In this document: positions 3,537 to 23,371 of the stretch, one piece after another
Layout: every line of letters starts with the position of its first letter
Position numbering within the stretch: position 1 is the stretch's first letter
Source: a virus
Direction: 5' to 3' (one strand)
Virus record (IMG/VR): IMGVR_UViG_3300030099_000552
Span: 1-29,992 of that record
DNA length: 29,992 bases
Made by a program: the position numbers and the translations under genes
Notes under the pieces: generated by a model
What the model saw: only the letters and a program-made list of their open reading frames with translations
Told to the model about the DNA's origin: nothing
Database searches by the model: none

Positions 3537-3893
3537 ATGAAAAAAATAATATATGCTAATAAAGAACATCAAGTTATAGTTAGCAATTATATTACAATGA
3601 TAAAAGAATTTGTTAAAGATGTATCTAATGATGTAAGATGGAAAAATTATAACCAAGTGTATGATTTGATTGTAGATTATCACAACAACTATGGTAAAAG
3701 CACAAAAGAAAATAATTATTGGGATTGGTTAATGATATTGCCAATTAATTTGTCAGTAATGACAAATGGTTTTTTAGCTGCAATAGAAACAAAAAGAAAT
3801 AAAACATTAGTAAATTCATATAGAGTTTTAATAAATGAAATGCTGCATGATGTAGTAGAAAAAATAGAAAAATTAGAGCCTTACAATGAATGA
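3537..3893 (+). CDS. Unknown early protein
   Basis: This 118-residue protein is not recognised. It looks entirely helical, with aromatic-rich segments (NNYWDWLMILPINLSVMTNGF, about residues 60-80) but no membrane span long enough to be convincing. It has its own candidate promoter box and overlaps the following sigma-like gene by 8 bases, so the two may form a small regulatory unit. No start codon other than the ATG at 3537 is plausible, because the box sits directly upstream. Confidence 0.55.
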   Translation: MKKIIYANKEHQVIVSNYITMIKEFVKDVSNDVRWKNYNQVYDLIVDYHNNYGKSTKENNYWDWLMILPINLSVMTNGFLAAIETKRNKTLVNSYRVLINEMLHDVVEKIEKLEPYNE

Positions 3894-6625: not shown

Positions 6626-7398
6626 TGAAAAGAAACAAAATATATAATGAAAACTGTTTAGACACTATGAAAAAAATGAATAGTAATTTTATAGATGCTA
6701 TAATTACATCACCACCTTATGATGATTTAAAAAAATATAATGGTTACACTTTTAACTTTGAGAGTATAGCTAATGAATTATATAGAGTATTAAAAGAAGG
6801 TTGTGTTTTAGTATGGATAGTAAATGATAGAATTAAAAATGGTAGTGAAACAGGCACAAGTTTTAAACAAGCACTTTATTTTAAAGAAATAGGTTTTAAT
6901 TTACATAATACTATGATATGGAACAAAACTAATCCAATGCCACAAATACAACATAATAGATATTTAGATGCTTTTGAGTATATGTTTATATTAAGTAAAG
7001 GCAAAGTAAAAAAATTTAATCCTATACGAGTAAATTGTAAAGATGCAGGTAATCAATATAAATACACTACAAAACACCCTTCAGAAAATAAAGATAGAAT
7101 AAAAAAAAATTTTAAAATTAATAAAAATAAAATATTAAATAATGTATGGAATGTTGCGGTATCAAAATTGAAAACAACACACCCTGCAACAAGTCCACAA
7201 AAACTTATAGATAAACATATTATAACATGGACAAATGAAAAAGATTTAGTATATGATTGTTTTAGTGGTAGTGGAACAACTGCTTTAAGTTGCATTAAAT
7301 ATAACAGAAATTTTATTTGTAGTGAAATTAGCAAAAAATATGTAGAACTAAGTAATAAAAGAATAAAAGAAATAAAAGCACAAAACAAATTATTTTAA
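6625..7398 (+). CDS. Orphan DNA methyltransferase 3 (SPPY type)
   Basis: This 257-residue beta-class DNA methyltransferase has motif IV SPPYD at 29-33 and motif I DCFSGSGTT at 211-219. SPPY occurs in N4-cytosine enzymes and in some N6-adenine enzymes, so the modified base is uncertain. The central region (about 95-185, basic and aromatic) should be the target-recognition domain. It is not closely related to the other two methyltransferases and has the classical Phe in motif I. It is the last gene of the early block; the proposed late promoter begins at 7382, inside its 3' end. Three methyltransferases in a 30 kb phage without a nuclease suggests that its hosts carry several restriction systems. 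Confidence 0.85.
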   Translation: MKRNKIYNENCLDTMKKMNSNFIDAIITSPPYDDLKKYNGYTFNFESIANELYRVLKEGCVLVWIVNDRIKNGSETGTSFKQALYFKEIGFNLHNTMIWNKTNPMPQIQHNRYLDAFEYMFILSKGKVKKFNPIRVNCKDAGNQYKYTTKHPSENKDRIKKNFKINKNKILNNVWNVAVSKLKTTHPATSPQKLIDKHIITWTNEKDLVYDCFSGSGTTALSCIKYNRNFICSEISKKYVELSNKRIKEIKAQNKLF

Positions 7399-7416
7399 TT
7401 TCTATTATATAGTATA
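7382..7416 (+). promoter_or_regulatory. Proposed late promoter 1 (before the terminase genes)
   Basis: The upstream box AAAACAAAT (7382-7390, 7 of 9 matches to CAAATAAAT) is followed after 10 bases by TCTAT (7401-7405) and TATAGTAT (7408-7415). The stretch TTCTATTATATAGTAT is the same as in promoter 4 (19792-19807) except for one base. It lies at the early-late border, upstream of the small terminase gene. Confidence 0.55.
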
Positions 7417-7418
7417 GA

Positions 7419-7432
7419 ATTGATTAATCAAT
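7419..7432. promoter_or_regulatory. Perfect 14-base palindrome in the terminase leader
   Basis: ATTGATTAATCAAT reads the same on both strands. It begins exactly 18 bases after the first base of TCTAT in promoter 1, the same distance as the palindrome behind promoter 4. It could be an operator or a short leader hairpin (5-bp stem, TTAA loop). Confidence 0.4.
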
Positions 7433-7443
7433 CTTTTTCAATT

Positions 7444-7716
7444 ATGGATAAACGAATAAACAATGGTGGTGCTAGAAAAGGTGCTGGTCGTAAAAGCAAA
7501 TCAGAAGAACAAAAGTTAATAGAGAATTTAACACCTATGAACAGTATGGCTTTAAATTCTTTAAAACAAGGTTTAGAGAATAAAGAACAATGGGCAGTAA
7601 AGTTATTTTTTGAATACTTTTATGGTAAACCACAACAAAGAGTAGATGTAACTACAAATGATGAAAGTATTAATATGCCTATAATAAACTTTGTAGAAAC
7701 TGAAACTGAACAATAA
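7444..7716 (+). CDS. terS: Terminase small subunit-like protein
   Basis: This 90-residue basic protein starts with a glycine/lysine-rich arm NGGARKGAGRKSKSEEQK, a common N-terminus of small DNA-binding terminase subunits, followed by helical segments and YGKPQQRVDVTT. It should bind phage DNA at the packaging site and recruit the large subunit, which is encoded directly downstream. I chose ATG 7444 (MDKRINNGG); an in-frame TTG at 7420 would add eight unlikely residues and overlap the leader palindrome. The gene is shorter than many TerS proteins. It ends in TAA at 7714-7716, overlapping the beginning of the large subunit frame. Confidence 0.7.
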   Translation: MDKRINNGGARKGAGRKSKSEEQKLIENLTPMNSMALNSLKQGLENKEQWAVKLFFEYFYGKPQQRVDVTTNDESINMPIINFVETETEQ

Positions 7717-8902
7717 ATATAAATTACTATTTAATTCTGATGCTCGTTATTATATAATAACAGGTGGTAGAGGATCAGGTAAATCATTTGCAGTAACAGT
7801 ATTTCTAACATTACTAACAATGAGTAAAAACATTAGGGTATTGTTTACAAGATATACAATGGTATCAGCACATTTATCTATTATACCTGAATTTTTAGAA
7901 AAAATAAAATTACTAGGTTTTGAAAATATATTTAGTATAAACAAAGCAGAAGTATTAAATTTAGGTAATAAATCAGATATACTATTTAGAGGTATTAAAA
8001 CATCAGCAGGTAATCAAACTGCAAGTTTAAAATCATTACAAGGAATATCTTGCTGGGTATTAGATGAAGCAGAAGAATTAATAGATGAAGATATATTTGA
8101 TACAATAGATTTAAGTATTAGAGAAAAAAATGTACAGAATAGAATTATACTAATACTCAATCCTGTTACAAAAGAACACTGGATTTACAATAGATTTTTC
8201 CAAGATAAAGGTGTAGAAGCTGGTTTTAATGGTGTTAAAGACAATGTATGCTATATTCATAGTACATACTTAGACAATAAAGAAAACCTTTCTAAGAGCT
8301 TTTTAGAGCGTATTAGGACTATAAAAGAACGTAATATAAAAAAGTATAAACACCAAATACTTGGTGGTTGGCTTGACAAAGCAGAAGGTGTAGTATTTGA
8401 TAATTGGACAATAGGACAATTTAATCCTGATGGACTACAAACATCTTGTGGTATGGACTTTGGATTTAGTGTTGATCCTGATAGTTTAGTAGAGGTTGCA
8501 ATAGATAAGAAAAAAAAGAAGATGTATGTTAAAGAACATATATACAAGAATGGTTTAAAGTCGCATGAATTAGCTAAGATAGTATTAGATAAAGTAGATA
8601 ATAAACTTATAATAGCTGATAGTGCTGAACCTAGATTAATAGAAGATTTAAAACACTTAGGAGTAAATATAAAACCTGTAAAAAAAGGTACAATAGAAAG
8701 TGGTATAACTAGAATGCAAGATTATGAATTAGTTGTATGTCCTGAATCAACTAATATTGCAAAGGAACTTAACAACTATGTATATGCAGATAAAGGTTCT
8801 AAACTATATGTAGATTCATATAATCACGCTATTGATGCTATAAGATACAACGTAATTTATCATTTAGATAATCCTAATTATGGTAAGTATTTTGTACAGT
8901 AA
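7706..8902 (+). CDS. terL: Terminase large subunit (PBSX/Terminase_3 type)
   Basis: This is the motor and nuclease that packages DNA into the prohead. With the start proposed here it has 398 residues. The ATPase domain shows Walker A GGRGSGKS at 20-27 and Walker B CWVLDEAEE with D120/E121. The nuclease domain shows CGMDFGFSVDP (D251), LIIADSAEP (D305) and YNHAIDAIRY (D377). The first ATG in frame is 7820, but that would delete Walker A. The frame is open back to 7697, yet holds no ATG, GTG or TTG. The best candidate is CTG at 7706, giving MNNKYKLLFNSDARYYIITG, which looks like a normal TerL N-terminus. Alternatives are a +1 frameshift from the small subunit or a sequencing indel. Confidence 0.9.
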   Translation: MNNKYKLLFNSDARYYIITGGRGSGKSFAVTVFLTLLTMSKNIRVLFTRYTMVSAHLSIIPEFLEKIKLLGFENIFSINKAEVLNLGNKSDILFRGIKTSAGNQTASLKSLQGISCWVLDEAEELIDEDIFDTIDLSIREKNVQNRIILILNPVTKEHWIYNRFFQDKGVEAGFNGVKDNVCYIHSTYLDNKENLSKSFLERIRTIKERNIKKYKHQILGGWLDKAEGVVFDNWTIGQFNPDGLQTSCGMDFGFSVDPDSLVEVAIDKKKKKMYVKEHIYKNGLKSHELAKIVLDKVDNKLIIADSAEPRLIEDLKHLGVNIKPVKKGTIESGITRMQDYELVVCPESTNIAKELNNYVYADKGSKLYVDSYNHAIDAIRYNVIYHLDNPNYGKYFVQ

Positions 8903-8932
8903 ACTAAATATTAATTTTTTCTATATATAATT
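8901..8932 (+). promoter_or_regulatory. Proposed late promoter 2 (before the tail chaperone)
   Basis: The box AAACTAAAT (8901-8909, 7 of 9 matches), exactly 10 bases, then TCTAT (8920-8924) and TATAATTAT leading straight into the ATG at 8933. TCTAT begins 13 bases before the ATG, as in promoters 3 and 5, so the transcript should have almost no leader. Confidence 0.5.
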
Positions 8933-9574
8933 ATGAAAATAAATGTAAGGAAAAAAGGTAAGGTAAAAACCTTTAACTTAATAAAAAGCTGGTCAGATGT
9001 TACAGTTGAAAAATGGGTTAAGTTAGTAAATTTACATAAAGGTAGTAGAAGTAAAGAAGCATTAGAAACAATAAGTGCATTATCAGATATACCTAAGAAG
9101 TTAATAAATGAGTTAGGAATACAAGATATTGCATTAATACTTACAAAACTAAGCGAATTACAAAAACTATCTAAAAGCAAGTTAAGAAAAATAATTAAGG
9201 TAGAGGATCAAGAGTTTGGTTTTCATCCTAATTTAGAAGATATAACATTAGGTGAATGGTCAGATATAGAGCATTATATAAAATTAGGTGTAGAAAAATT
9301 TATGCCACAAATTATGGCAGTTTTATATAGACCAATAGTAGAACAAAGAAATGATAAATATAGTATTGAAGCATATAGTGGTAATATTGATGTCAGGGCA
9401 GAATTATTTAAGAAGATGAGAGCAGAAGATGTACAAGGTGCTATGGTTTTTTTTTATCATTTAGGAAACGAATTACTGAAGATTTTGCCATTATATTTAA
9501 CACAAGCTATGACACAAATGGAGAAGGAGATAAAGGACAAAGTTTTGCGGAAAAATGGGGTTACTTTGGCATAA
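8933..9574 (+). CDS. Tail assembly chaperone, first frame (gpG-like)
   Basis: This 213-residue, helical, charged protein follows TerL and precedes the tail completion proteins. Features fitting a gpG-type chaperone are an N-terminal strand region (KINVRKKGKVKTFNLIKSW), LEDITLGEWSDIEHYI in the middle and FFYHLGNELLKILPLYL near the end. Such proteins hold the tape measure during tail assembly. A second frame, shifted by -1, is open from 9412 and continues to 9706, coding for FAEKWGYFGIMYRLCNGDIS, which looks like the conserved continuation made by programmed frameshifting in many siphoviruses. Proposed late promoter 2 ends at its ATG. Confidence 0.6.
   Translation: MKINVRKKGKVKTFNLIKSWSDVTVEKWVKLVNLHKGSRSKEALETISALSDIPKKLINELGIQDIALILTKLSELQKLSKSKLRKIIKVEDQEFGFHPNLEDITLGEWSDIEHYIKLGVEKFMPQIMAVLYRPIVEQRNDKYSIEAYSGNIDVRAELFKKMRAEDVQGAMVFFYHLGNELLKILPLYLTQAMTQMEKEIKDKVLRKNGVTLA
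9447..9455 (+). other. Candidate slippery run (nine T) in the tail chaperone gene
   Basis: Nine consecutive T lie inside the window where both the zero frame and the -1 frame are open (9412-9571). Read as T TTT TTT, it is a perfect -1 slippery heptamer. It is, however, upstream of the segment FYHLGNELLKILPLYL that looks conserved in the zero frame. The GAAAAAT stretch at 9550-9556, preceded by the purine-rich GGAGAAGGAG (9520-9529), is an alternative site. Confidence 0.3.
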
Positions 9575-9708
9575 TGTATAGATTATGTAATGGAGATATA
9601 AGTAAATTAGAAACAATAACTAAACTAAATTTATTAGAAGCATTTACTTGGCTTAGTTATGAAACAGATTTAGAAAGTACAACAAAAGTAAAAATAAATG
9701 GTCAATAA
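9574..9708 (+). CDS. Tail assembly chaperone, -1 frame extension (gpT-like) or coupled small gene
   Basis: From its own ATG it codes for 44 residues beginning MYRLCNGDISKLETITKLNL. The frame extends upstream without a stop to 9412 and reads DTNGEGDKGQSFAEKWGYFG just before the ATG, which looks like real protein. The most likely product is therefore a fusion with the preceding gene made by a -1 frameshift, as in lambda gpGT. As a second possibility, the stop TAA of the first frame and this ATG overlap (TAATG), so reinitiation could make a free 44-residue protein. The role is tape-measure chaperoning. It overlaps the next gene by 11 bases. Confidence 0.55.
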   Translation: MYRLCNGDISKLETITKLNLLEAFTWLSYETDLESTTKVKINGQ

Positions 9709-10189
9709 TAAAACGTATAACAACGTAATAGATACACTAAAAAATTTAGGTACAAATCACTTACAAATAAGCACAACAACAGTAGGTGATATATTTGATA
9801 TAGATTTAGAAAAAAATACACTATATCCATTAATGCACCTAAACCCTGTAAATGTAACAACAAGAAGAACAGAACTTGTATATAACTTTCAAGTGTTTAT
9901 AATGGACTTAGTTGAACCTGATGGTAGTAATGAACAAGAAGTATATAGTGATGTTTTACAAATATGTATAGATATTATTGGTATATTAAGTAATTCTAAA
10001 TGGCAAGCACAATTAGCATTAGATATTAATGCACCTGTATATTTTGCAGAAGGTGATTTTACTTGTGAACCATTTAAAGAACGATTTGACCAATCAGTAA
10101 CAGGTTGGGTTTTTAATATAGGTATAACAGTACAAAATAGCTTTCAAACTTGTGAAGTACCAATGACAGATACATTTATAGGAGAATGA
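9698..10189 (+). CDS. Probable tail completion/terminator protein
   Basis: This 163-residue protein has a beta-rich middle (VTTRRTELVYNFQVFIMDLV) and end (SVTGWVFNIGITVQNSFQTCEVP) flanking a helix with VLQICIDIIGIL. This mix resembles small tail-terminator or tail-completion proteins that cap the tube. Position supports it: behind the chaperone pair and before a gp10-like neck protein. It has no catalytic motif. It overlaps the chaperone extension by 11 bases and ends with an ATGA junction. Assignment is by context and fold style only. Confidence 0.5.
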   Translation: MVNNKTYNNVIDTLKNLGTNHLQISTTTVGDIFDIDLEKNTLYPLMHLNPVNVTTRRTELVYNFQVFIMDLVEPDGSNEQEVYSDVLQICIDIIGILSNSKWQAQLALDINAPVYFAEGDFTCEPFKERFDQSVTGWVFNIGITVQNSFQTCEVPMTDTFIGE

Positions 10190-10254
10190 TAAAATTAAAA
10201 ATAGGCAAATTAACAATACAACTAATACCACCAAAAATAACTTATGGATTATAA
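10186..10254 (+). other. Possible 22-residue coupled peptide
   Basis: An ATG overlapping the preceding stop (ATGA) opens a basic frame, MIKLKIGKLTIQLIPPKITY plus GL, which ends inside the next gene. The ATGA coupling is the only argument for translation; it fills the 54-base gap between the two flanking genes. Confidence 0.25.
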
Positions 10255-10600
10255 CGAATTATTAGAAAAATTAGAAGCAATAAGTATAGAGTTAAAAAGC
10301 TATACAGATTATCCACAAGCAGCAACTAACAATGCTAAACGTGCAAGAAAATGGAAAGAAGAAAATGGTAGTGATTGTGGTACAAGAGTAGGTTGGACAA
10401 GATCAGCACAATTAGCAGATAGAAAACCAATAAGTAGAGATACAATAGCACGTATGGCTTCATTTAAAAGACATCAACAAAATAAAGATGTACCATATAG
10501 TGAAGGTTGCGGTGGTTTAATGTGGGACGCTTGGGGTGGTTCTAGTGGTATAAATTGGGCAATTAGTAAATTAAAACAAATAGATAAAGAAAAAAAATAA
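10244..10600 (+). CDS. Conserved phage morphogenesis-associated small domain
   Basis: This 118-residue protein is made mostly of a domain also seen as an extension in head-maturation and XkdF-like proteins of Bacteroidota phages. Visible marks are YPQAATNNAKRARKWKEENG, CGTRVGWTRSAQLADRKPIS, RDTIARMASFKRHQQNK and GCGGLMWDAWGGSSGINWAI. It is cysteine- and tryptophan-rich and basic in the middle, suggesting nucleic acid or protein binding in the virion or prohead. Here it stands alone in the tail module, not fused to the protease. Function is unknown; the domain itself is recognisable. Confidence 0.6.
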   Translation: MDYNELLEKLEAISIELKSYTDYPQAATNNAKRARKWKEENGSDCGTRVGWTRSAQLADRKPISRDTIARMASFKRHQQNKDVPYSEGCGGLMWDAWGGSSGINWAISKLKQIDKEKK

Positions 10601-10603
10601 ATT

Positions 10604-11053
10604 ATGGCAGACTTAACAACAACAATTACAGAAAGTGTTACCTTAAATGGTGCAGTAAGAGGTTCTACAAACACATTAACAGTTACAGGAATAAATGATG
10701 TTATGCACAGAATAGTTACTTGTCCTCATTCAAATGCAACTACAATAGCAACTTTTTCATCTAATGTATATGATAGTGCAAATGCATTAGATTTAGAAAA
10801 TTGTAAATATATTAGAGTAACAAATATTAGTGCAACAGAAGTATTAGATTTAGCAGTAGTAACAGAAAATACAAATTATCAAGTAGTATTAACTGCTGGA
10901 ACATCTCACATACTATGTCAAGCTGATACTGCTGCTATTGCAGAAGCAGATACAACACCTAATTTTCCTACATTAGAAGATATTACAAGCATACAAATAA
11001 AACCTAGAGGTACAGATGATGCAGAAGTAGAAATATTTGTAGGTTTGTTATAA
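10604..11053 (+). CDS. Probable small virion protein, beta-rich
   Basis: This 149-residue protein has alternating Thr/Val/Ile strands throughout (TITESVTLNGAVRGSTNTLT, IRVTNISATEVLDLAVV, YQVVLTAGTSHILC) and almost no lysine-rich helix, unlike the early proteins. That composition is typical of tail or decoration proteins with beta-sandwich folds. It has no signal peptide or membrane span. It sits 3 bases after its upstream neighbour and shares the TAATG junction with the gp10-like gene. I cannot name a family. Confidence 0.5.
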   Translation: MADLTTTITESVTLNGAVRGSTNTLTVTGINDVMHRIVTCPHSNATTIATFSSNVYDSANALDLENCKYIRVTNISATEVLDLAVVTENTNYQVVLTAGTSHILCQADTAAIAEADTTPNFPTLEDITSIQIKPRGTDDAEVEIFVGLL

Positions 11054-11601
11054 TGGCACAATCTTTTGATAATATAGAAAGATATTTAGAAAGTTTTGGT
11101 AAATATGTAGTAAAACAAGCAAGAACAAATTTAACTAAAGCTAGAAAAAACGTATCTAAAGATTTATACAACTCTATTAAGTTTAAATTAAAACAACAAG
11201 GTAGTAGTTATGATGTAGAGTTTTATATGTTAAATTATGGTACGTTTGTAGATAAAGGTGTAAGTGGTAATAAAAAAATACAAGAATTTACAACTTATGA
11301 TGGTAGGAAAGTAGAAAGTCCTTTTAAGTACACAAATAAAATGCCACCTACAAGTATATTAGCAAAATGGATAAGTGCAAGAAAAATAAAAGGTAGAGAT
11401 AAAAAAACAGGTAGGTTTATTAGTAATAAATCTTTAGCATATTTAATAGCAAGTAAAATAAAAAGAGATGGAATTAAAAGCACTAGTTTTTTTCAAAGAC
11501 CATTAGGGTTAGGTTTAGATAGATTTGGTGTAGGACTTTTAGGTGCAATTAAAGAAGATGTTACAACTGCATTTTCAAATATGTATAAAACAACAGTATA
11601 A
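11053..11601 (+). CDS. HK97 gp10-like tail completion/neck protein
   Basis: This basic 182-residue protein has hallmarks of the HK97 gp10-like group that joins tail and head: an N-terminal helix FGKYVVKQARTNLTKARKN, the strand pair SIKFKLKQQGSSYDVEFYM, the signature NYGTFVDKGVSG, MPPTSILAKWISARKIKGRD in the middle, and SLAYLIASKIKRDGIKSTSFF towards the end. The motif YG(T)FVDKGVSG is characteristic for Bacteroidota versions. It should act at the head-tail interface. Its position before the large tail genes agrees with this. Confidence 0.65.
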   Translation: MAQSFDNIERYLESFGKYVVKQARTNLTKARKNVSKDLYNSIKFKLKQQGSSYDVEFYMLNYGTFVDKGVSGNKKIQEFTTYDGRKVESPFKYTNKMPPTSILAKWISARKIKGRDKKTGRFISNKSLAYLIASKIKRDGIKSTSFFQRPLGLGLDRFGVGLLGAIKEDVTTAFSNMYKTTV

Positions 11602-11603
11602 AT

Positions 11604-13079
11604 ATGGCATTAACAATAGAACAAAAACCATTATATAAATTATTATCAGCAGGACAAAAAATAATATTTACAGTTAGTGATCCTGTTATAGTAGCAGCAG
11701 AAACAAGAGTAAAATATAAAGCAGAAGTAATATTATACAACAATACAGGTACAGTATCACCAATAGTTGCAACATTAAAAACAACACCTAACAATTCAGG
11801 TGTAGGTATATTTGATTTTAGATCTATTGTAGAAAGCTTTGTAAGTTCTGATAATTTATCTACACTACAAATTTTTGGTACATTAGGAACAACATCAACT
11901 TTTAAAGGAAATACATTAGGAGATTTTAATAAATTTCCAATACATATACAAGATAGATATAGTTTAGCTGAAAATACTACAAGATTTTTAGCTATTAATT
12001 TTTATGTTGAATACTTAAACTCAACAACAGGTTTAATAATAGATAGTGGACAACAACTTAGTGAAACAGGATATTTAATTTATAATGGTGTTTTATTTTC
12101 ACATGATGAATTACAAACAGGTGTAAATAATAATAATTTTGGATATGATTTAGATAATTTTAAATATATACCTAATTCTAATACATCTAAATTCTTAACT
12201 GATTGTCCTACAACACTTAATGCAAGAACAGTAGATTATGGTACATTTGCTATGTTTAATCAATTAAATACAAGTAGTTTTAGTTTTGAAACATCACCAA
12301 GTGGTTCAGCACCATCTAACAATGTGGTAAATTTAGTAGAACTAAAAATGTATGATAGCACAAATAGTCAGTTAGGTAGTACACAAAACATTAACAATGC
12401 AGTAGGTAATGAAGGTGGTACAGGTAATTTAGGTATTGAATTATCTAAAACTAAATTAGTATTTTTTGGTGCTTATCCAGCAAATCTTAGAGGTTGGAAT
12501 ACTGCATTTCAAAGTAATTTAGCACAAATATCTTATTATACATTACAAGCATTTGATGATAGTGGTAATGCAGTAACACAACTATATACAATTAATATTA
12601 TATGTGATAGTAGTTTTGGATATGAAACAGTAAGATTAACATGGTTAAACAAACATGGTGCATGGGATTACTTTACTTTTACTATGAAAAACATAAGAAG
12701 TACAACATCAAACAGAAGCACATATACACAAATAGATGGTACTTGGAATGAAACAACATATAAACCATATTCTTATAAAGGTGGTATGAAAAACTTTAAC
12801 ACAAATGCAAAAGAAAAATTACAACTTAATACTGATTTTTTAAGTGATTTAGATAGCATTTGGTTAGAACAATTATTTACAAGTCCTGAAGTATATATAA
12901 TTAAAGATTTTGATGAAAACGATTTAGGTTCAGGTACTACATCAAAAATAAACAAATATGTAGAACCTGTATTAATTACAAGTTCTAGCTATATAAGAAA
13001 AACAAAAGCAAACGATAAGTTAATACAATATACATTAGAAATAGAAAGAAATAAAACTAACAGTTTACAATTAGGATAA
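11604..13079 (+). CDS. Large tail/baseplate structural protein
   Basis: This 491-residue, beta-rich protein is without enzyme motifs. The N-terminal third (LYKLLSAGQKIIFTVSDPVI, then VGIFDFRSIVESFVS) and the C-terminal end (NTDFLSDLDSIWLEQLFTSP, then YTLEIERNKTNSLQ) have the style of distal tail or baseplate proteins in flavobacterial phages. The middle (about 190-330) is low-complexity and rich in Asn, Ser and Thr, as in extended tail parts. It ends at TAATG shared with the 960-residue gene, so both are co-translated and probably interact at the tail tip. Confidence 0.55.
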   Translation: MALTIEQKPLYKLLSAGQKIIFTVSDPVIVAAETRVKYKAEVILYNNTGTVSPIVATLKTTPNNSGVGIFDFRSIVESFVSSDNLSTLQIFGTLGTTSTFKGNTLGDFNKFPIHIQDRYSLAENTTRFLAINFYVEYLNSTTGLIIDSGQQLSETGYLIYNGVLFSHDELQTGVNNNNFGYDLDNFKYIPNSNTSKFLTDCPTTLNARTVDYGTFAMFNQLNTSSFSFETSPSGSAPSNNVVNLVELKMYDSTNSQLGSTQNINNAVGNEGGTGNLGIELSKTKLVFFGAYPANLRGWNTAFQSNLAQISYYTLQAFDDSGNAVTQLYTINIICDSSFGYETVRLTWLNKHGAWDYFTFTMKNIRSTTSNRSTYTQIDGTWNETTYKPYSYKGGMKNFNTNAKEKLQLNTDFLSDLDSIWLEQLFTSPEVYIIKDFDENDLGSGTTSKINKYVEPVLITSSSYIRKTKANDKLIQYTLEIERNKTNSLQLG

Positions 13080-15961: not shown

Positions 15962-16854
15962 TGTCAAAAAGAACAATACAAATAAAAAAAGGATTAACTT
16001 TAAAACCTAATGCAGTATCAGATTTAGGTACTGTTACATTTACTGATGGTGTTAATGTAGATTTACTTGGAGATCAAATGACTTGTGAAGCGTATGGTTA
16101 TAGATATAATGTTGCAACAGGTACTTGTAGTGCATTTAGTGCTAATCCTAACATAAAAAATTCTTTAGTAGGTAGAGATAAAAAAATATTAGGTGTAAAA
16201 AATGAAATAGAAACATTTTCACAAAATAATTTAATTGTTGGTACGAATAACACAAATAAAAGTTACAACTGTAATACAATGTTGTTAGGTGAAAATCATG
16301 AAACAGTTACAGGTATAAAAAATTCAGCAGTAATAGGTGGTACAAGAGCAAAGCTAACTAGACAAAGTGAAGTAGCAATAGGTGGTGGTGCAAGAGCAAT
16401 ATCAGATAGCACAAATGCAGTAACATTTAATAGTAGAAGAAAAACATCAACATTAGAACTTAGTTGTGTTACAATAGATAATACTGCAACTAATATGACA
16501 ATACAAGGTGATGGTGAAAGTTTTATAAATGTAGAAAACAATTCTATAATAGGTTATGATATTTATATAACAAGATTAGAACTTGGTGGTACATCAGGAA
16601 CTGCTGGTAATTACTCATATAGAAACATTAGAGGTGCAGTAAAAATAAATCAAGTTGGTGTTATGTCTTTTATAGTAGGTTTTAGTAGAAATATAGCTAA
16701 AGTAGGTGTAAATGGAACTTGTATAATGACAGATAGTACAACAGGCGGTGTACCATCTATTAGTGTAAACGTACAAGATAGAAACAACGTACATAATTTA
16801 TGGAGTGCATCAGTAACACTACATGAAGTAATAAGTGAAACAAATATAGTATAA
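15961..16854 (+). CDS. Tail fibre with YadA-head-like repeats
   Basis: This 297-residue protein has a middle region (about 85-160) with repeats in the style of the left-handed beta-roll of trimeric adhesin heads: NNLIVGTNNTN, NTMLLGENHETVTGIKN, SAVIGGTRAKLTRQSEVAIG. Each repeat has a small residue/Ile-Gly core at about 14-residue spacing. The rest is beta-rich. Such trimeric fibres usually bind the host surface, so a receptor-binding role is likely. The N-terminus, with SKRTIQIKKGLTLKPNAVSD, may attach to the tail tip. It starts directly after the 960-residue gene (stop and ATG share a base) and precedes the tape measure. Confidence 0.6.
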   Translation: MSKRTIQIKKGLTLKPNAVSDLGTVTFTDGVNVDLLGDQMTCEAYGYRYNVATGTCSAFSANPNIKNSLVGRDKKILGVKNEIETFSQNNLIVGTNNTNKSYNCNTMLLGENHETVTGIKNSAVIGGTRAKLTRQSEVAIGGGARAISDSTNAVTFNSRRKTSTLELSCVTIDNTATNMTIQGDGESFINVENNSIIGYDIYITRLELGGTSGTAGNYSYRNIRGAVKINQVGVMSFIVGFSRNIAKVGVNGTCIMTDSTTGGVPSISVNVQDRNNVHNLWSASVTLHEVISETNIV

Positions 16855-16855
16855 T

Positions 16856-18310
16856 ATGGCAAAGCAAGAAATAGTAGAAGCAATAGTAAAATCAAATATA
16901 GGTGAAGTAGCTGATGGACTTGATAAAGCTAAAAAAAGCACTAAAGAATTAGCAGATAGTACAAAAGATGCTGATAAAGGTTTTGGTAGAGTAGGTAAAG
17001 CAGTAAAAGGTATAGGTAATGCACTAAAAGCAGCAGGTATAGGTTTAGTAGTAGGTTTATTTGTAAAATTAGCTGATGTATTTAGACAAAACCAAAAAGT
17101 AGTAGATATATTTAATACTGCTATGGAGTTTTTAAGCATTACATTTAATGACTTTTTTAAGTTTTTATCTAACAATATAGATACTGCATCAGGTTTTATA
17201 GACAAAATATTTGGTAATGAAACTGTACAAAATGTTTTAGAGTTTGGTAAAATGTTAGGTCTTGAAGTAATAACAAGAGTTAAAAATCTTATACAAGGTA
17301 TAGGTGGTTTAGGTAAAGCAGTATCATTAGTATTTAAAGGTAAATTTGAAGAAGCAGGAAATGTAGCAACAGATGCAGTTAAAAATTTAGGTGATGCAGT
17401 AGTAGGTAATACTGCTGAAACTGCAAAAATGGAACAACAGATAGATAAAGTTACAAAAAAAATAAAAGAATATACCAAATCTACATTTGAAGGTGCAAAA
17501 GCACAAGTACAATTAAGAAAAGATAGTGAATTAGCAGCAGTAAAAGTACAGGGTTTAATAGAAGAATTTGATAGACAAGCAGAAAAATTAAGACAAGTTA
17601 GAGATGATGAAACTAAAACATTTGAAGAAAGAATAGCAGCTAACGAAAAATTAGGTGAAGTTCTTAAAGAGCAAGAACAGGAAATGTTAAAACTTATTGA
17701 TATTCAAATAGAAGCAGCAGAAGCTGATTTAGCCAAAAATAATAATTTAGAAAATCAAATAAGATTACAAGAATTGTTAAATGAACGTAAAGGAGTGGAA
17801 GCACAAATTACAGGTTTTCAATCAGAACAACTAACTAATCAAGTAGCATTAACAAAAGAAAAAGAACAAGCAGATAAAGATGCAGCAGATGTAGCATTTG
17901 AAAATATGCAAACACAATTAGCAGCTTATAGTCAATTATCAGGTGCATTAAGTAGTTTAGCAGGTGAAAACAAAGCATTAGCAGTAGCAAGTGCAATAAT
18001 TGATACATATTCTGGTGCATCTAAAGCATTAGCATCAGCACCACCACCTGTTAATTTTATATCAGCAGCAGCAGTTGTAGCAGCAGGTTTAGCTAATGTT
18101 AGAAAAATATTACAAACAGATGTAGGTAGTGGATCAGGTGGTTCAGTACCTAGTGCATCAGCACAAGCACCTGCACCTCAAATGTTAAGTGGTGCATTTG
18201 ATTTAGGTGGAGTACAAGCACCAGAACCTGTACAAGCGTTTGTAGTAACTGATGATATGACTAATAGTCAAGATAAGTTAGCAAACATTAGAAGAAGAGC
18301 AACAATTTAA
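16856..18310 (+). CDS. Tape measure protein
   Basis: This 484-residue helical protein is proposed to set tail length. Evidence: a Lys/Ala/Asp-rich coiled N-terminus (about 1-50); a hydrophobic segment AAGIGLVVGLFVKLADVF near 59-76; a second hydrophobic/glycine region around residues 135-180; a long coiled coil (about 195-350, with QQIDKVTKKIKEYTKS and EKLRQVRDDETKTFEERIAA); and an end with the typical tape measure pattern LAVASAIIDTYSGASKALAS and AAAVVAAGLANVRKIL. It is short for a tape measure; at about 0.15 nm per residue the tail would be roughly 70 nm. This is inference from the family rule. Confidence 0.8.
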   Translation: MAKQEIVEAIVKSNIGEVADGLDKAKKSTKELADSTKDADKGFGRVGKAVKGIGNALKAAGIGLVVGLFVKLADVFRQNQKVVDIFNTAMEFLSITFNDFFKFLSNNIDTASGFIDKIFGNETVQNVLEFGKMLGLEVITRVKNLIQGIGGLGKAVSLVFKGKFEEAGNVATDAVKNLGDAVVGNTAETAKMEQQIDKVTKKIKEYTKSTFEGAKAQVQLRKDSELAAVKVQGLIEEFDRQAEKLRQVRDDETKTFEERIAANEKLGEVLKEQEQEMLKLIDIQIEAAEADLAKNNNLENQIRLQELLNERKGVEAQITGFQSEQLTNQVALTKEKEQADKDAADVAFENMQTQLAAYSQLSGALSSLAGENKALAVASAIIDTYSGASKALASAPPPVNFISAAAVVAAGLANVRKILQTDVGSGSGGSVPSASAQAPAPQMLSGAFDLGGVQAPEPVQAFVVTDDMTNSQDKLANIRRRATI

Positions 18311-18314
18311 AAAA

Positions 18315-18346
18315 CAAATAAATATTAAAAATGTCTATATATAAAT
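18315..18346 (+). promoter_or_regulatory. Proposed late promoter 3 (before the head module)
   Basis: Perfect CAAATAAAT box (18315-18323), 10 bases, TCTAT (18334-18338) and TATAAATA running into the ATG at 18347. TCTAT begins 13 bases before the ATG. It fills the gap between tape measure and first head gene, where a new transcription unit is plausible. Confidence 0.55.
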
Positions 18347-18841
18347 ATGCCGTGTAAAAAATGTCCAGATGGAAAATATAAGTATGGTAATACAGGAGAA
18401 TGTAAATACGATACAAAAGAAGAATGTGATAAAGCTAATCCTAATAAATATAATAAAATGAAAGAATATCCTACACCTTTAGGTAAAAAGACCTATGAAG
18501 AATACGAAAAAGAACTGAAAGAGTTTAATTTAAGTGCAGAACCTAAATTAGAAAAAATCGAATTAACTGCAATAACAGAATTAGAAGAATATGAATATGA
18601 GTTAGATAAAGGTAGAGAAGATTTAATGAAATTTGCAACTGATGCTAGGGAAGCAATAGCAAAAGGAGTTAGAGAACTTAACAGATTAGATGCGGTAAAT
18701 AAAGTAGCAAACAGAATATTAGGTGATGTAGAAAAAGCAGCAAAAGATTTAGGAGTTGATGTGCCACAAATAAAAGCATTAAAAAGTGCTATAAGTGCAT
18801 ACGAACAACAAAGAAAATCACTAACTAAAGTTCTAAAGTAA
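18347..18841 (+). CDS. Cys-rich N-terminus plus coiled-coil protein, head module
   Basis: This 164-residue protein begins MPCKKCPDGKYKYGNTGECK and continues DTKEECDKANP, placing four cysteines (C3, C6, C19, C27) in a small knot or zinc site; this start is often seen in Bacteroidota phage head genes. The rest (about 50-164) is a charged coiled coil (ELEEYEYELDKGREDLMKFA, EKAAKDLG). The C-terminal part resembles the C-terminal extension of the following protease, which suggests that they interact or derive from each other. It lies 1 base upstream of the protease gene. Role is unknown; a prohead core or scaffold helper is likely. Confidence 0.55.
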   Translation: MPCKKCPDGKYKYGNTGECKYDTKEECDKANPNKYNKMKEYPTPLGKKTYEEYEKELKEFNLSAEPKLEKIELTAITELEEYEYELDKGREDLMKFATDAREAIAKGVRELNRLDAVNKVANRILGDVEKAAKDLGVDVPQIKALKSAISAYEQQRKSLTKVLK

Positions 18842-18842
18842 T

Positions 18843-19769
18843 ATGAAAAAGAAACCTACAAAAATAGTTGAATTAGTTATAGAAGAAAACAACGAAATGT
18901 TAGCAATAGATGCTATTAGTTTAGTATCAGCACCTGCAATAGAAGAAAACTTTGTATATTTTGGAAAAGAAAAACACAATCTAACATTTGCAAAAGTAGA
19001 TGAAGATAAGCGTATGTTAGTTAGTCCTGCATTAATACCTAATAAACAAATATTTAGATACAATCCACAAACTGATAGTGAGTATTATGTGTATTTTAGT
19101 AAAGATACTGTTAGACAAGCAGCAGAACTATATCTAAAGCATAATAACCACCACAAAGCAACGTATGAACATCAAGATAGAGTATCAGGTGTATTGACTA
19201 CTGAAAGCTGGATTAAAGAAGGTGATATGGACAAATCAAAAATGTATGGTTTTGATTTACCTAATGGCACTTGGTTCGTAAAAATGAGAATTGATAATGA
19301 TGATTTATGGAACAAGATAAAAGAAGGTGAACTAAAAGGACTTAGTATAGAAGGGTACTTTGTAGATAAAATGCAAAAGATGTCAGATAATAAACCTACT
19401 GATCATGAAATATTAAGTGCTTTAAATGAGATTATAAGAGAAACTAATAAACCACAAAAAGTAGAGTTAGCATTAGTTGATGATTTAGTTAAAGATGCTA
19501 AAAGACTTAGTTCTAAATATGAAAAAGCAGTAAAAAATCACATGGCTATAGCTAAACTTGTTAATGAAAATTTTAAAGAAATGGCTAGTTTAGTTAAAGC
19601 TGCTAAAAAAGGATATGGTTTTGTTTCTACTATTGATAAGCAATTTAAAAAGTTAGGGGTAAAGCCATCAAAACAATATAAAAAAGCAAGTCAAGAAATT
19701 TTTGATATAGCTGAAGGAAGTGGTGAACAAATGCTAAAAGATTTAGCAAAATTCAAAGGATTACTTTAA
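18843..19769 (+). CDS. XkdF-like prohead protease (S78-type) with helical tail
   Basis: This 308-residue protein is proposed to cleave scaffold and capsid during head maturation. Residues 50-175 follow the XkdF/Peptidase_S78_2 pattern: RMLVSPALIPNKQIFRYNP, YYVYFSKDTVRQAAELYL, HKATYEHQDRVSGVLTTESW with the candidate catalytic H110, and GELKGLSIEGYF with the candidate nucleophile S168. From about 205 onward a lysine-rich helical region follows (DDLVKDAKRLSSKYEKAVKN), which is an extension to the protease core. Its place before scaffold and major capsid agrees with the function. The assignment of the third catalytic residue is not possible by eye. Confidence 0.8.
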   Translation: MKKKPTKIVELVIEENNEMLAIDAISLVSAPAIEENFVYFGKEKHNLTFAKVDEDKRMLVSPALIPNKQIFRYNPQTDSEYYVYFSKDTVRQAAELYLKHNNHHKATYEHQDRVSGVLTTESWIKEGDMDKSKMYGFDLPNGTWFVKMRIDNDDLWNKIKEGELKGLSIEGYFVDKMQKMSDNKPTDHEILSALNEIIRETNKPQKVELALVDDLVKDAKRLSSKYEKAVKNHMAIAKLVNENFKEMASLVKAAKKGYGFVSTIDKQFKKLGVKPSKQYKKASQEIFDIAEGSGEQMLKDLAKFKGLL

Positions 19770-19773
19770 AAAT

Positions 19774-19809
19774 CAAATAAATATATAATTATTCTATCAT
19801 ATAGTATAA
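19774..19809 (+). promoter_or_regulatory. Proposed late promoter 4 (before scaffold and capsid)
   Basis: Perfect CAAATAAAT (19774-19782), 10 bases, TCTAT (19793-19797), then TATAGTAT (19800-19807). It differs from promoter 1 by one base over TTCTAT to TAGTAT. The ATG lies 40 bases beyond the start of TCTAT, so there is a real leader here. Confidence 0.6.
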
Positions 19810-19810
19810 A

Positions 19811-19822
19811 CTTTAATTAAAG
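19811..19822. promoter_or_regulatory. Perfect 12-base palindrome in the scaffold/capsid leader
   Basis: CTTTAATTAAAG is self-complementary and begins exactly 18 bases after the first base of TCTAT in promoter 4, as the terminase-leader palindrome does behind promoter 1. It is followed by a purine-rich AGAGAACACATT before the ATG, the closest thing to a ribosome-binding site in the late region. Confidence 0.4.
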
Positions 19823-19832
19823 AGAACACATT

Positions 19833-20555
19833 ATGGATTTAAAAAAGCAAATTAAAATAGCATTAGGTCTTGAAACTGAAGAAGAAGTAAAATTAGGTTT
19901 TCAGGCTAAAACAGAAGATGGTACAATTATTGTATCAGAATCAGATACATTAGAAGTAGGTGTAGATATTTCAGTATTAACTGAAGATGGAACTACAATA
20001 CCATTACCTGTTGGTTTATACGTAATGGAAGATGGTACTAAGGTTAAAGTAGAAGAAGAAGGTAAAGTAGCTGAAATTATGGAAGGTGAAGCTGAAGAAA
20101 CAGAAGAAGAAGTTAAAGAAGTAGAAGCATCAGAAGAAGAAGAATTAGCATATAAAAAGAAGAAAAAGAAAAAAATGGCTGAATACGATTTCGAAGAAAT
20201 AGAAAAAAGGATGTCAAAATTAGAAAAAGAAGTAGAAGAAATGCAATTAGTTTTAGGTAAGGGTAAAGAAGAAGAAATGTCAGAAGAAACTATTGAAGAT
20301 GAAATAGTAGAACCTAAAAGTGATAGTCCTAAGACAGTTACAACTAAAACAACTGAAGTAGTTGAATTTTCTAGTGATGAAGTTATAGAAGAACTAAAAT
20401 CAGAAAATGAAAAACTAAGAAAACAATTAGCAGAAAGTCCAGCAGATGCACCTGTTAATACAAATAAATTTAGTGCAGATAGACCTGTACTTACAACTCA
20501 ACAATATAACAAACTTTCTAAAAAAGAAAGGTTTTTATACAACTTAAATAAATAA
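19833..20555 (+). CDS. Scaffold-like acidic coiled-coil protein
   Basis: This 240-residue, very acidic protein lies directly before the major capsid gene. N-terminal residues 1-80 are beta-rich (VKLGFQAKTEDGTIIVSESD, LPVGLYVMEDGTKVKVEEEG). A run of glutamates (about 85-108) leads to KKKKKKK near 110-117 and then a coiled coil (IEKRMSKLEKEVEEMQLVLG), a linker and a second coil (VIEELKSENEKLRKQLAES). The C-terminus is basic (KLSKKERFLYNLNK), suitable to touch the capsid protein. This layout fits internal scaffolding proteins removed by the upstream protease. It has its own proposed promoter and leader palindrome. Confidence 0.7.
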   Translation: MDLKKQIKIALGLETEEEVKLGFQAKTEDGTIIVSESDTLEVGVDISVLTEDGTTIPLPVGLYVMEDGTKVKVEEEGKVAEIMEGEAEETEEEVKEVEASEEEELAYKKKKKKKMAEYDFEEIEKRMSKLEKEVEEMQLVLGKGKEEEMSEETIEDEIVEPKSDSPKTVTTKTTEVVEFSSDEVIEELKSENEKLRKQLAESPADAPVNTNKFSADRPVLTTQQYNKLSKKERFLYNLNK

Positions 20556-20573
20556 TAATAAAAAAATTTAAAA

Positions 20574-21494
20574 ATGGCATTATCAACAACAAGTAATTTT
20601 AGTGGTAAAGCAGCTGGTTTTTACATTAGCGCAGCACTAAAAGAAGCAAAATCGTTAGAATTTCTAACAAAAATTGAAAACATCAAATTTAAAAGCAACA
20701 TTCAAAGAATGGATAATTCTGGTACAGTTATACAAAATGCTGATTGTAATTTTCAAGAAAGTGGTTCACTAGATTTGACAGAAAAAATATTAGAACCTAA
20801 AAATTTAATGATTAATATAGATTTATGTAAAAAAGAATTACTAGATTCATGGGAAGCTCTACAAATGAGAGCAGGTGCAGGCGCACCACCACCACCAGCA
20901 TTTGAAGATTATGTAATATCTTATCTTGGTGAAATTATTGCAAATGGAGTAGAGAATGATATTTGGGCTGGAGATAATGGTGCTGGTAGATTTCTAGGTT
21001 TTATGACTGCAACGACAGGTTTATTATTACCAGCAGTTGATGCAACAGTTGTACAATCATCAGCATCAGGTGCATTTGATGTAAACAATATTATTGCTAA
21101 CTTACAAACTGCAACTTCTGATTTAGCTGATAATATTTCAACTATATTAAGAAAAGATGATTTACATATCTATATGTCTCCAAAAACTTATAGCTTATAT
21201 ATTTCAGCAGTATCTACATTAGGATATGTAAACGCTTATAATATGAACGCTGATTATCAGCCTGTTTTTGAAGGATATAAAATTGCAGTATGTCCAGGTA
21301 TGAGGGATAATGGTTTAGTTATTGCACAAAGTTCTAACTTATTCTTTGGTACTGATTTATTATCAGATCATACAAGAATACAATTGATGGATATGGCTAA
21401 TCTTGATGGTTCAGATAACATTAGATGTGTAGCTAGATATTCAGCAGGTGTACAATCAGGAATAGGTGCTGATATTTTAAGAATGCAACATTAA
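20574..21494 (+). CDS. Major capsid protein (HK97-fold expected)
   Basis: This 306-residue protein is proposed to build the icosahedral shell. It follows protease and scaffold and has the composition of a capsid protein: few lysines, many Ala/Gly/Ser, and an extended N-arm (ALSTTSNFSGKAAGFYISAA). Then follow the strand region LMINIDLCKKELLDSWEALQ, the helix AFEDYVISYLGEIIANGVEN (spine-helix-like), DIWAGDNGAGRFLGFM, and DLHIYMSPKTYSLYISAVST in the A-domain. It ends IRCVARYSAGVQSGIGADIL. The proline run APPPPPA near 105-110 lies in a loop. The HK97 fold is inferred from context and pattern. Confidence 0.8.
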   Translation: MALSTTSNFSGKAAGFYISAALKEAKSLEFLTKIENIKFKSNIQRMDNSGTVIQNADCNFQESGSLDLTEKILEPKNLMINIDLCKKELLDSWEALQMRAGAGAPPPPAFEDYVISYLGEIIANGVENDIWAGDNGAGRFLGFMTATTGLLLPAVDATVVQSSASGAFDVNNIIANLQTATSDLADNISTILRKDDLHIYMSPKTYSLYISAVSTLGYVNAYNMNADYQPVFEGYKIAVCPGMRDNGLVIAQSSNLFFGTDLLSDHTRIQLMDMANLDGSDNIRCVARYSAGVQSGIGADILRMQH

Positions 21495-21507
21495 TAAACA
21501 ATAATAT

Positions 21508-21531
21508 GGTAGAGGTGTCAAAACCTCTACC
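21508..21531 (+). terminator. Hairpin between capsid and tail tube genes
   Basis: GGTAGAGGT (21508-21516) pairs perfectly with ACCTCTACC (21523-21531) around a 6-base loop. Only a weak T-rich tail follows (TTAACTTT), so partial termination, or stabilisation of the capsid mRNA 3' end, is more likely than a full stop. Confidence 0.55.
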
Positions 21532-21553
21532 TTAACTTTAAAAATAAATAAAT

Positions 21554-22150
21554 ATGGCTTGTACAAGTTTAACAAAAGGAAGGGAACTACAATGTGATAG
21601 AATTGCAGGTGGTATAAAGAATGTTTATTTTGGGGTTTATGATGATTTTAATGCAAATGCAACAACAGGTGAAATATTAGGTACAGGTATAGTTATATCG
21701 GCTGGTTCTGTTACAGATATTGAAATGGGTAGTAATGATTTATATAGATATACATTACCAAGAGGTGAAAGTAGTTTAACAGAAACTATTGTAGGTTCTA
21801 CTGAAAATGGTACTATTCATTATACACCACAAATAACAATTAAACTAAATCATTTATCTACTGCTGACCAAAATCAAGTTAGATTATTAGCATTAAGTAA
21901 ATTAGTTATATTTGCAGAATTAAACGAATTAAATTCAGCAGGTAAAAATGTAATAGTTTGTATGGGTGTAAGAAATGGTATGAGATTAAATTCAGGTACT
22001 AATTTAAGTGGTGCAGCATTTGGTGATCATAATGGTTATTCATGGACTTTTGATGGTATGGAAGAAGAACCAATGGCAGTAGTTGCAGATTACACTACAA
22101 CACCATTTGATAATACTGCATTTACAATTAACAGTATAGTAATATCATAA
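21554..22150 (+). CDS. Probable major tail tube protein
   Basis: This 198-residue protein begins MACTSLTKGRELQCDRIAGG, a start typical for Bacteroidota phage tube proteins (GREL-C, then GGI). It continues with strands NVYFGVYDDFN and YRYTLPRGESSLTETIVGST ENG, then NGMRLNSGTNLSGAAFGDHN and SWTFDGMEEEP. The order of strands and the GTxxGDxxGY turn support a tube fold. It would form the hexameric tube through which DNA passes. It lies behind the capsid, separated by a hairpin, and is followed by a strong terminator, so both highly expressed structural genes share a well-delimited unit. Confidence 0.65.
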   Translation: MACTSLTKGRELQCDRIAGGIKNVYFGVYDDFNANATTGEILGTGIVISAGSVTDIEMGSNDLYRYTLPRGESSLTETIVGSTENGTIHYTPQITIKLNHLSTADQNQVRLLALSKLVIFAELNELNSAGKNVIVCMGVRNGMRLNSGTNLSGAAFGDHNGYSWTFDGMEEEPMAVVADYTTTPFDNTAFTINSIVIS

Positions 22151-22186
22151 ACTCTAACATTAGTGTTTTTATATATTTTCTTAATT

Positions 22187-22214
22187 AAGGTGGTTTTATA
22201 CCACCTTTTTTTTT
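22187..22214 (+). terminator. Rho-independent terminator after the capsid/tail tube unit
   Basis: AAGGTGGT (22187-22194) pairs with ACCACCTT (22200-22207) around TTTAT, followed by nine T (22206-22214). This is a classic compact terminator and the clearest one in the window. Proposed promoter 5 begins 7 bases further on. Confidence 0.85.
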
Positions 22215-22220
22215 AGAATA

Positions 22221-22252
22221 CAAATAAATTCTACAATTTTCTATATTATAAT
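22221..22252 (+). promoter_or_regulatory. Proposed late promoter 5 (after the terminator)
   Basis: Perfect CAAATAAAT (22221-22229), 10 bases, TCTAT (22240-22244), then TATAATAT running into the ATG at 22253; TCTAT begins 13 bases before the ATG. A promoter is needed here, since a strong terminator lies directly upstream; this is the best single argument for the motif's function. Confidence 0.65.
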
Positions 22253-23371
22253 ATGATACAACTAACTTACAATACAGTTGCAAAACCTGAATTTATTTAT
22301 TTAGTAACAGAAGATGAACGTATAGATACAACTGTTGCTAAAGATCAGTTAGATTTTTTGTTTAAATTAACTAATGATATGACAGGTAACATTATATATG
22401 TTTATAGTGCAAGCGTTAGTGTATTTAATAGATATACAAAATTAAATTTAGCAGCAACAGATATTACAAATCAAAATTTGTTTAATGGTTTTTTTCATGG
22501 CTTACCTGTTGGATATTATGGATATGAACTATATGAATTAACAAAAGAAAGTTCAGCAACAATAGCTAAAACTTGTTCTACTGCACCAAAAGAAAATTCA
22601 GGTATTATTGGAGTAGTAAATTTTAGTTTTAGTGGTACAATATTATTTACACAAAATTTAACAGGTTTAAATGATGTGTATAATCAAAAAGTAACAGATT
22701 TAGATGCTGGTATATATGCTTTTAACATAGATAATCAATGCGGTGATAATATACATACAGGCGGTACAGAACTTTTTTCTATAAACTCACAAAGCGATAA
22801 TACAAGATTTTTAGAAATTACAAGTGTAACACAAACTTCAACAGGTATAAATGTAACAATACTTTCTAAAATGCCTATTGGACATTCTTATAGTTTTGTA
22901 CAAGGTAGTACTAATCCTGAAACACAAATAACAAACATTACTACTAACCCGCAAACTACTACACATAGTTTCGATCAAGTAGGTGACCCTACTTTAAGTG
23001 CTAATTTAGTTGAGTGTGAACAATATGCAGATACAGGTGGTGCAGCAGGTGGTGGTTTAGTTGTTGGTTCAAAACTAAATATAAGACCATTAAGCAACCC
23101 TAGTAGTTATTTTGGTATTACAATAGTTTTAGCTATTAATGATGTATTATTAGAACATGGTACAAGTACAGTAAAAGAGAAAGGTAATGTTTTTATAAGT
23201 GCAATTTATGGTGCAACATCTACAAGTACAACAAAAGGTTATTATACATTACAAGGTAAAGTTACAGAAGGCAAAATGTACATTACTCAAGGTGAAGAAA
23301 CACTTAAAGAAGTAACATATAAAGAGCATGAAGAACCAGCAGGAACGAATTATATATATTATGGACAATAA
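22253..23371 (+). CDS. Virion surface or connector protein with inserted domain
   Basis: In this 372-residue protein the N-terminus (YNTVAKPEFIYLVTEDERID, DQLDFLFKLTNDMTGNIIYV, LPVGYYGYELYEL) and the C-terminus (GKVTEGKMYITQGEETLKEV, then KEHEEPAGTNYIYYGQ) read as the two halves of a compact protein of about 180 residues common near capsid genes in Bacteroidota phages. Between them, about residues 115-300, lies a Ser/Thr/Asn-rich region with the style of a tail-fibre or immunoglobulin-like domain (QCGDNIHTGGTELFSINSQS, GLVVGSKLNIRPLSNPSSYF). The insertion may add a surface-exposed adhesion domain. The promoter just upstream makes it the first gene of the next unit. Confidence 0.55.
   Translation: MIQLTYNTVAKPEFIYLVTEDERIDTTVAKDQLDFLFKLTNDMTGNIIYVYSASVSVFNRYTKLNLAATDITNQNLFNGFFHGLPVGYYGYELYELTKESSATIAKTCSTAPKENSGIIGVVNFSFSGTILFTQNLTGLNDVYNQKVTDLDAGIYAFNIDNQCGDNIHTGGTELFSINSQSDNTRFLEITSVTQTSTGINVTILSKMPIGHSYSFVQGSTNPETQITNITTNPQTTTHSFDQVGDPTLSANLVECEQYADTGGAAGGGLVVGSKLNIRPLSNPSSYFGITIVLAINDVLLEHGTSTVKEKGNVFISAIYGATSTSTTKGYYTLQGKVTEGKMYITQGEETLKEVTYKEHEEPAGTNYIYYGQ

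Follow-up and report, generated by a model that had tools for sequence, protein, structure and literature searches.

A spaced two-part motif before late genes of a marine phage: candidate promoters for a phage-encoded ECF-like sigma factor

Introduction

In the IMG/VR virus record IMGVR_UViG_3300030099_000552, analysed here over its whole length of 29,992 bases (the window; 28% G+C), one two-part motif recurs in front of genes of the late region, which raises the question of what this motif does and which protein would read it. A first-pass annotation had described a nine-base box followed by TCTAT and suggested a phage-specific late promoter. This suggestion is supported by conservation of the motif at five junctions, by a sigma factor gene that occurs together with it, and by covariation of the sigma residues 76 and 77 with the promoter bases, evidence from which we infer promoter activity. 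On this basis the five copies are very probably late promoters of a marine phage, read by the phage's own extracytoplasmic function (ECF)-like sigma factor on the host core enzyme. Beyond the first-pass annotation, the present analysis adds a candidate reader protein, a residue–base code, and a sister set of promoters in a cultured phage. A literature search, largely limited to freely readable papers, found none on the promoters of this phage group.

Results

The five copies of the motif lie on the plus strand at the coordinates first given for them, and exactly 10 bases separate the box from TCTAT in each (Table 1). Dinucleotide shuffles had been proposed as the yardstick, and in a scan of both strands the pattern MAAMYAAAT-N10-TCTAT was found at exactly these five places, with no further match on either strand (zero on the minus strand), against 0.06 expected; zero shuffles reached five. 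The form AAATAAAT-N10-TCTAT occurs three times in the window, against 0.05 expected from the shuffles. An AT-rich tail, roughly WWTATANTATR, belongs to the motif as well, with a fixed register to the ATG, and the distance of 13 bases from the start of TCTAT to the ATG, which had been noticed in three copies, is as described. Two copies had been regarded as matching the box at only seven of nine positions; their coordinates stand, but they are not simply decayed forms, as the one before the gene starting at 8933 (gene 8933; others are named likewise) represents a subtype specific to its site, AAACTAAAT, and 66/66 nonredundant relatives retain its AAAC. One copy had been placed just behind a terminator, and a terminator-like hairpin at 22187-22207 indeed precedes the copy at 22221; a hairpin with a T-run is present at the same place in several relatives.

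The motif is conserved well beyond the window. Among 52 related IMG/VR loci, found via the portal protein, AAATAAAT and TCTAT are paired on the coding strand 39 times at a gap of 10 and only 0–3 times at each other gap from 0 to 30, whereas no pair with a gap of 10 is found on the opposite strand; these loci are mutually related, and the 39 matches do not represent 39 independent events. Nevertheless, 23 copies that differ from one another at more than eight positions have the motif unchanged, while their N10 and flanks have diverged. A position weight matrix (PWM) built from the copies in the related loci was used to scan the window and 20 related records, and most of the near-complete records have one site each 5' of the small-terminase-like (TerS-like) gene and of genes 8933, 18347, 19833, and 22253, with scores of 13–36 at these five junctions, where 0.03 sites per 29 kb strand are expected at a score of 12. 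In the relative G026 most strict matches are missing, and a shifted motif stands at four of the five places. The site before gene 8933 is present in 104/104 contigs carrying both this gene and the sigma gene. Terminase, protease, tape-measure-like, and portal genes lie 3' of the sites, so that several conserved copies precede structural and packaging operons, the arrangement of a phage late promoter set; in the window, promoter 1, which overlaps the 3' end of a methyltransferase open reading frame (ORF), is predicted to drive the small-terminase-like gene (ATG 7444) and TerL (7820-8902). Of the five promoters, that of gene 18347 (18315-18347 and its orthologues) is weakest in the relatives, with PWM scores down to 11 and TATAT in several genomes whose sigma has R76, and it is possibly kept weak.

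Searched in IMG/VR, the extended pattern CAAATAAAT-N10-TCTATTATAT has matches in at least 80 loci, and in 78 of the 80 matches listed, two or more proteins of the window phage other than methyltransferases are encoded. The short pattern CAAATAAAT-N10-TCTAT was rejected as a specific marker, window-phage proteins being found in 6/60 loci without the extension. Megablast with 8 kb and tblastn with the window sigma gave no match in the phage collection.

The candidate reader is encoded at 3886-4437, by an ORF whose product is, judged by sequence and predicted structure, an ECF-like sigma factor. It matches PHROG 1740, "RNA polymerase sigma factor" (E 1.5e-5), and homologues with 48–92% identity are encoded in 23/27 related records, the four records without one being fragments of 14–25 kb. 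The family members have 178–204 amino acids, in keeping with a two-domain protein of regions 2 and 4 only (about 160–200 amino acids). Of 19 members, 8 are matched by Sigma70_r4 and 6 by Sigma70_r4_2 (best E 3.7e-7), and these Pfam matches, together with the VIA-align superposition of region 4, indicate the helix-turn-helix expected there; Sigma70_r2 is found in one of the 19, weakly (E 0.006). AlphaFold2 (19 family members) predicts two helical domains joined by a disordered linker of low confidence (residues 90–118). Sigma factors fill the top ranks of the Foldseek and VIA-align comparisons, where sigma-E, SigL, and fragments of region 4 rank high; the VIA-align matches span residues 1–183, and residues 116–182 superpose on sigma-E region 4 at 2.8 Å over 67 residues, while the large whole-chain root-mean-square deviation probably reflects domain orientation. 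Sequence matches are too weak to place the protein in any named ECF group. Residues 76 and 77 are tentatively assigned to the end of region 2.4 by an alignment read by hand, with the VQE motif as its anchor, because the family could not be usefully aligned with Escherichia coli RpoE by hhalign (probability 0.3%) and its hhalign alignment with gp33 of the cultured phage P12024S, discussed below, was weak. No copy of the motif lies 5' of the sigma gene.

These two residues follow the bases of the −10 element. Two relatives, G026 and L049 (G025 record), have TATAT in place of TCTAT and a sigma with N76 in place of R76. Three further sigma scans, each giving at most the best 80 of more than 500 IMG/VR stretches, enlarged the set with contigs having H, T, Y, N, or K at residue 76 and N at residue 77. 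Covariation was tested at the gene 8933 site in 66 nonredundant contigs, with site scoring that ignored −10 bases 2–4. Arginine or lysine at residue 76 goes with C at base 2, and asparagine, threonine, tyrosine, or histidine with A, with 0 errors in 66, whereas 5 errors are the best that any other sigma column achieves, and the gene 8933 product, used as a control protein, reaches 6 at best. Serine at residue 77 goes with T at base 3 and asparagine with C, again with 0 errors in 66 and a normalised mutual information of 1.0; one other sigma column is also error-free, but it contains six residue types and has a normalised mutual information of 0.26. All four combinations are seen, namely RS or KS with TCTAT, NS, TS, YS, or HS with TATAT, KN with CCCTT, and NN with TAC[AT]T. 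On a tree built leaving out columns 76 and 77, there are six changes of residue 76 and six of base 2, three of residue 77 and three of base 3, and the residue and base changes coincide. Contacts of arginine or lysine with the G of a C:G pair are frequent in protein–DNA complexes. Compared across the contigs, the code is thus without exception at one promoter, and most copies of the other promoters also conform to it.

This covariation bears on an alternative that we regard as unlikely, in which the motif would be the operator of another phage-encoded activator assisting the host holoenzyme (sigma-ABfr). A box located 5' of the −10 region would suit such an activator, and activators too yield fixed spaced motifs upstream of late operons; however, at one site the −10 bases agree with sigma residues 76 and 77 in all of 66 contigs, the two elements have an ECF-like spacing, and the host −7 element TAnnTTTG is found at none of the five copies, as the first-pass annotation had observed. 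Host sigma-ABfr promoters (TTTG / TAnnTTTG) were themselves considered and rejected as an account of the copies, TAnnTTTG occurring 32 times per strand throughout the window and at none of the five sites. A scan of the window for the sigma-70 consensus gave no more matches than in shuffles.

The predicted recognition by the phage sigma also has a parallel in a cultured phage. The Nonlabens phage P12024S shares the portal protein with the window phage (33% identity), and while the strict window motif is absent from it, AAACAAA, CGTTAATATA, and an ATG follow one another upstream of gp05, gp08, gp35, gp41, gp44, and gp45; a partial copy precedes gp01. AAACAA and CGTTA are separated by 15 bases in five cases, with at most one case at any other gap tested, and the ATG lies 12 bases after the C in 6/7 sites. 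From these sequences, P12024S carries a putative sister set of promoters whose −10 element, CGTT, is of ECF type and for which gp33 is likely the sigma factor: this protein (L238, NC_018271, 20595-21074) matches Sigma70_r2 with 25.2, above the cutoff of 24, and its gene is near the terminase. In its annotation it is a hypothetical protein, accompanied by a note on Sigma-70 region 2. The CCCTT clade (L449, L453, L463, L465) is intermediate in −10 sequence. Since CGTT is a common ECF type and Bacteroidetes hosts encode many ECF sigmas, a host protein instead of the phage one might read these promoters; we consider this very improbable, because the phage's own sigma is conserved alongside the motif and its residue changes match the motif changes. 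The kinship with P12024S and the base composition indicate that the host of the window phage is probably a flavobacterium. Two contigs of metagenome-assembled genomes labelled Pseudooceanicola and Euryarchaeota (L526, PAPR01000004.1, and L527, PBGL02000003.1) carry the sigma gene and the motif of this phage group; they are seemingly phage contigs that were assigned to the bins of unrelated organisms, and they are uninformative on the host.

The position of the start codon suggests where transcription would begin. Among PWM sites with a downstream ORF, the start codon is most often exactly 32 bases from the box start, with a single case at 31 and none nearer, and the remaining sites have it at 33–34, 42–46, 50, or 57–62 bases; at the gene 8933 site, the first ATG lies 12 bases after −10 base 2 in 33/66 contigs. 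In Mycobacterium tuberculosis sigma-H, region 2 reads the −10 bases G-11 T-10 T-9 (PMC6411747), and when the CGTT of P12024S is aligned with this register, +1 falls on the A of the ATG. The first-pass annotation had expected 5' ends within about 15 bases downstream of TCTAT, a range that the present evidence narrows to a predicted start 13 bases after the beginning of TCTAT, a position that in three copies is the A of the ATG. The late mRNAs starting at 8933, 18347, and 22253 would then be leaderless, which would be unusual for the phylum, because 87% of Flavobacterium johnsoniae mRNAs have leaders over 10 nt (PMC6847099). The same fixed distance in three copies could mean that the motif is a translation signal, AT-rich sequence aiding initiation in Bacteroidetes without Shine-Dalgarno sites, and initiation in F. 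johnsoniae does depend on nucleotides close to the start codon, A at −3 among them (PMC6847099). We nevertheless give this reading hardly any credence, since in 2/5 window sites the motif is intact 59–62 bases before the ATG, only five of some 40 genes carry it, and it covaries with a sigma factor.

Table 1. Coordinates of the candidate promoters and other features in the window.
Feature	Position	Strand	Box	−10 element (N10 after box)	Predicted +1	PWM score	Remarks
Late promoter 1	7382..7414	+	AAAACAAAT 7382-7390	TCTAT 7401-7405	near 7414	24.7	orthologous site in relatives
Late promoter 2	8901..8933	+	AAACTAAAT 8901-8909	TCTAT 8920-8924	A of ATG 8933	26.3	
Late promoter 3	18315..18347	+	CAAATAAAT 18315-18323	TCTAT 18334-18338	A of ATG 18347	23.3	
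Late promoter 4	19774..19806	+	CAAATAAAT 19774-19782	TCTAT 19793-19797	near 19806	28.7	leader ~27 nt to ATG 19833
Late promoter 5	22221..22253	+	CAAATAAAT 22221-22229	TCTAT 22240-22244	A of ATG 22253	29.8	behind terminator
Intrinsic terminator directly 5' of promoter 5	22187..22215	+					8 bp stem and T-run
Terminator-like hairpin between genes 20574 and 21554	21508..21531	+					
Predicted ECF-like phage sigma factor (183 aa) with region 4 and a putative region 2	3886..4437	+					predicted −10 readers R76, S77

Among the other features of the window, three paralogous DNA methyltransferase ORFs (2130-2744, 5622-6245, and 6625-7398), all with PHROG 67 as best match, lie within 5.3 kb and flank the sigma gene on both sides. 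The ORF at 661-1179 matches the DnaA C-terminal (domain IV) helix-turn-helix, with 32.2 bits against a Pfam cutoff of 31.5, and adjoins a RepO-like initiation protein (1169-1768). In the gap 557-661, 5' of gene 661, GAGGTGTAG ... CTACACCTC followed by a T-run resembles a terminator with a long loop; it was seen by eye and was unlisted by the terminator scan. No tRNA was found in a tRNA scan of the window.

Discussion

In the mechanism that we propose, the host RNA polymerase core together with the phage sigma would use the five promoters. Region 4 of the sigma would bind the box (AAAC/CAAAT) as a −35 element, and region 2 would read the −10 element TCTAT, with R76 setting C at base 2 and S77 setting T at base 3. 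Transcription would start 12 bases after −10 base 2, that is, at the A of the ATG for three genes and 27–30 nt 5' of the ATG at the other two. Motif, positions, conservation, covariation, and the sigma gene with its modelled fold come from sequence comparison, and it is from these that we infer activity, late timing, exact starts, and the contact of region 4 with the box.

Several observations weigh against this interpretation. The large genes of the window are all on a single strand, so the common orientation of the copies is not independent evidence. The window sigma falls just below the curated cutoff of Sigma70_r4_2 (24.1 against 25.7; E 2.9e-5), and its model has a mean predicted local distance difference test (pLDDT) score of 74.5 and a best Foldseek E-value of 0.003. 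Only three switches per residue are on well-supported branches, and although all pairs agree, the sign test gives p 0.25, with significance out of reach at this number. Moreover, the code is error-free at the gene 8933 site only. At the TerS-gene site, TACAT is found in L514 (R76 S77) and L523 (Y76 S77) despite S77, in a clade next to L446 (NN), and the gene 18347 site has TATAT in G009, G010, G017, G021, and G027, all with R76; an A at base 2 may be acceptable where a site is weaker.

With these points considered, we lean toward the broader proposal of a natural two-residue, two-base code (residue 76 for base 2, residue 77 for base 3), in which the promoters would change along with the sigma, at least four specificities (TCTAT, TATAT, TACAT, and CCCTT) would exist and maybe separate co-infecting phages, and late mRNAs would be leaderless in a phylum where this is rare. 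For an abundant group of marine phages that is known largely through metagenomes, with at least 511 confirmed sigma-bearing stretches in IMG/VR, a promoter sequence and a predicted reader can now be assigned to the late genes, and the cultured pair of P12024S and Nonlabens (Persicivirga) IMCC12024 allows a direct test of the prediction. The residue–base code points to a joint change of a phage sigma and its promoters, a question usually approached via designed mutants, and pairs that differ in specificity could be used in Bacteroidetes as expression switches independent of one another. What is new here is the phage lineage, the promoter sequence, the probable leaderless starts, and the natural two-residue code, while phage sigmas for late promoters and residue–base links in cellular ECFs were already known.

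Among known systems, the T4 protein gp55 is a phage sigma-like protein that recognizes an AT-rich −10 signal at late genes; T4 late promoters consist of a −10 element only and require the sliding clamp, unlike those of the window phage group, in which a second, upstream box is conserved. In phiEco32 and phage 7-11, according to the accessible part of their description, a phage sigma likewise directs middle and late structural-gene promoters, which exist in few well-conserved copies and were found by intergenic comparison; the consensus sequences, TAATGTATA in phiEco32 and TGATGT-based in 7-11, belong to another phage group and another host phylum, and a residue-to-base code such as that of the window sigma is not met in that part (PMC4331800). 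M. tuberculosis sigma-H and E. coli sigma-E resemble the protein described here, as predicted, in being two-domain sigmas with rigid −35/−10 spacing and a short −10 element read by region 2 (PMC6411747; PMC8103513), and the CGTT of P12024S resembles the G-T-T element of sigma-H (PMC6411747). Unlike the cellular ECFs, the window sigma is phage-borne, has a predicted late regulon, and would read an AT-rich −10 element, TCTAT. A parallel to the code is the computed ECF-promoter specificity code of Todor et al. 2020, which, as cited in PMC8103513, also links sigma residues to promoter bases position by position; it was derived for many cellular ECFs with autoregulated promoters, whereas here a single phage sigma lineage, with no copy of the motif before its own gene, appears to have changed together with its late promoters.

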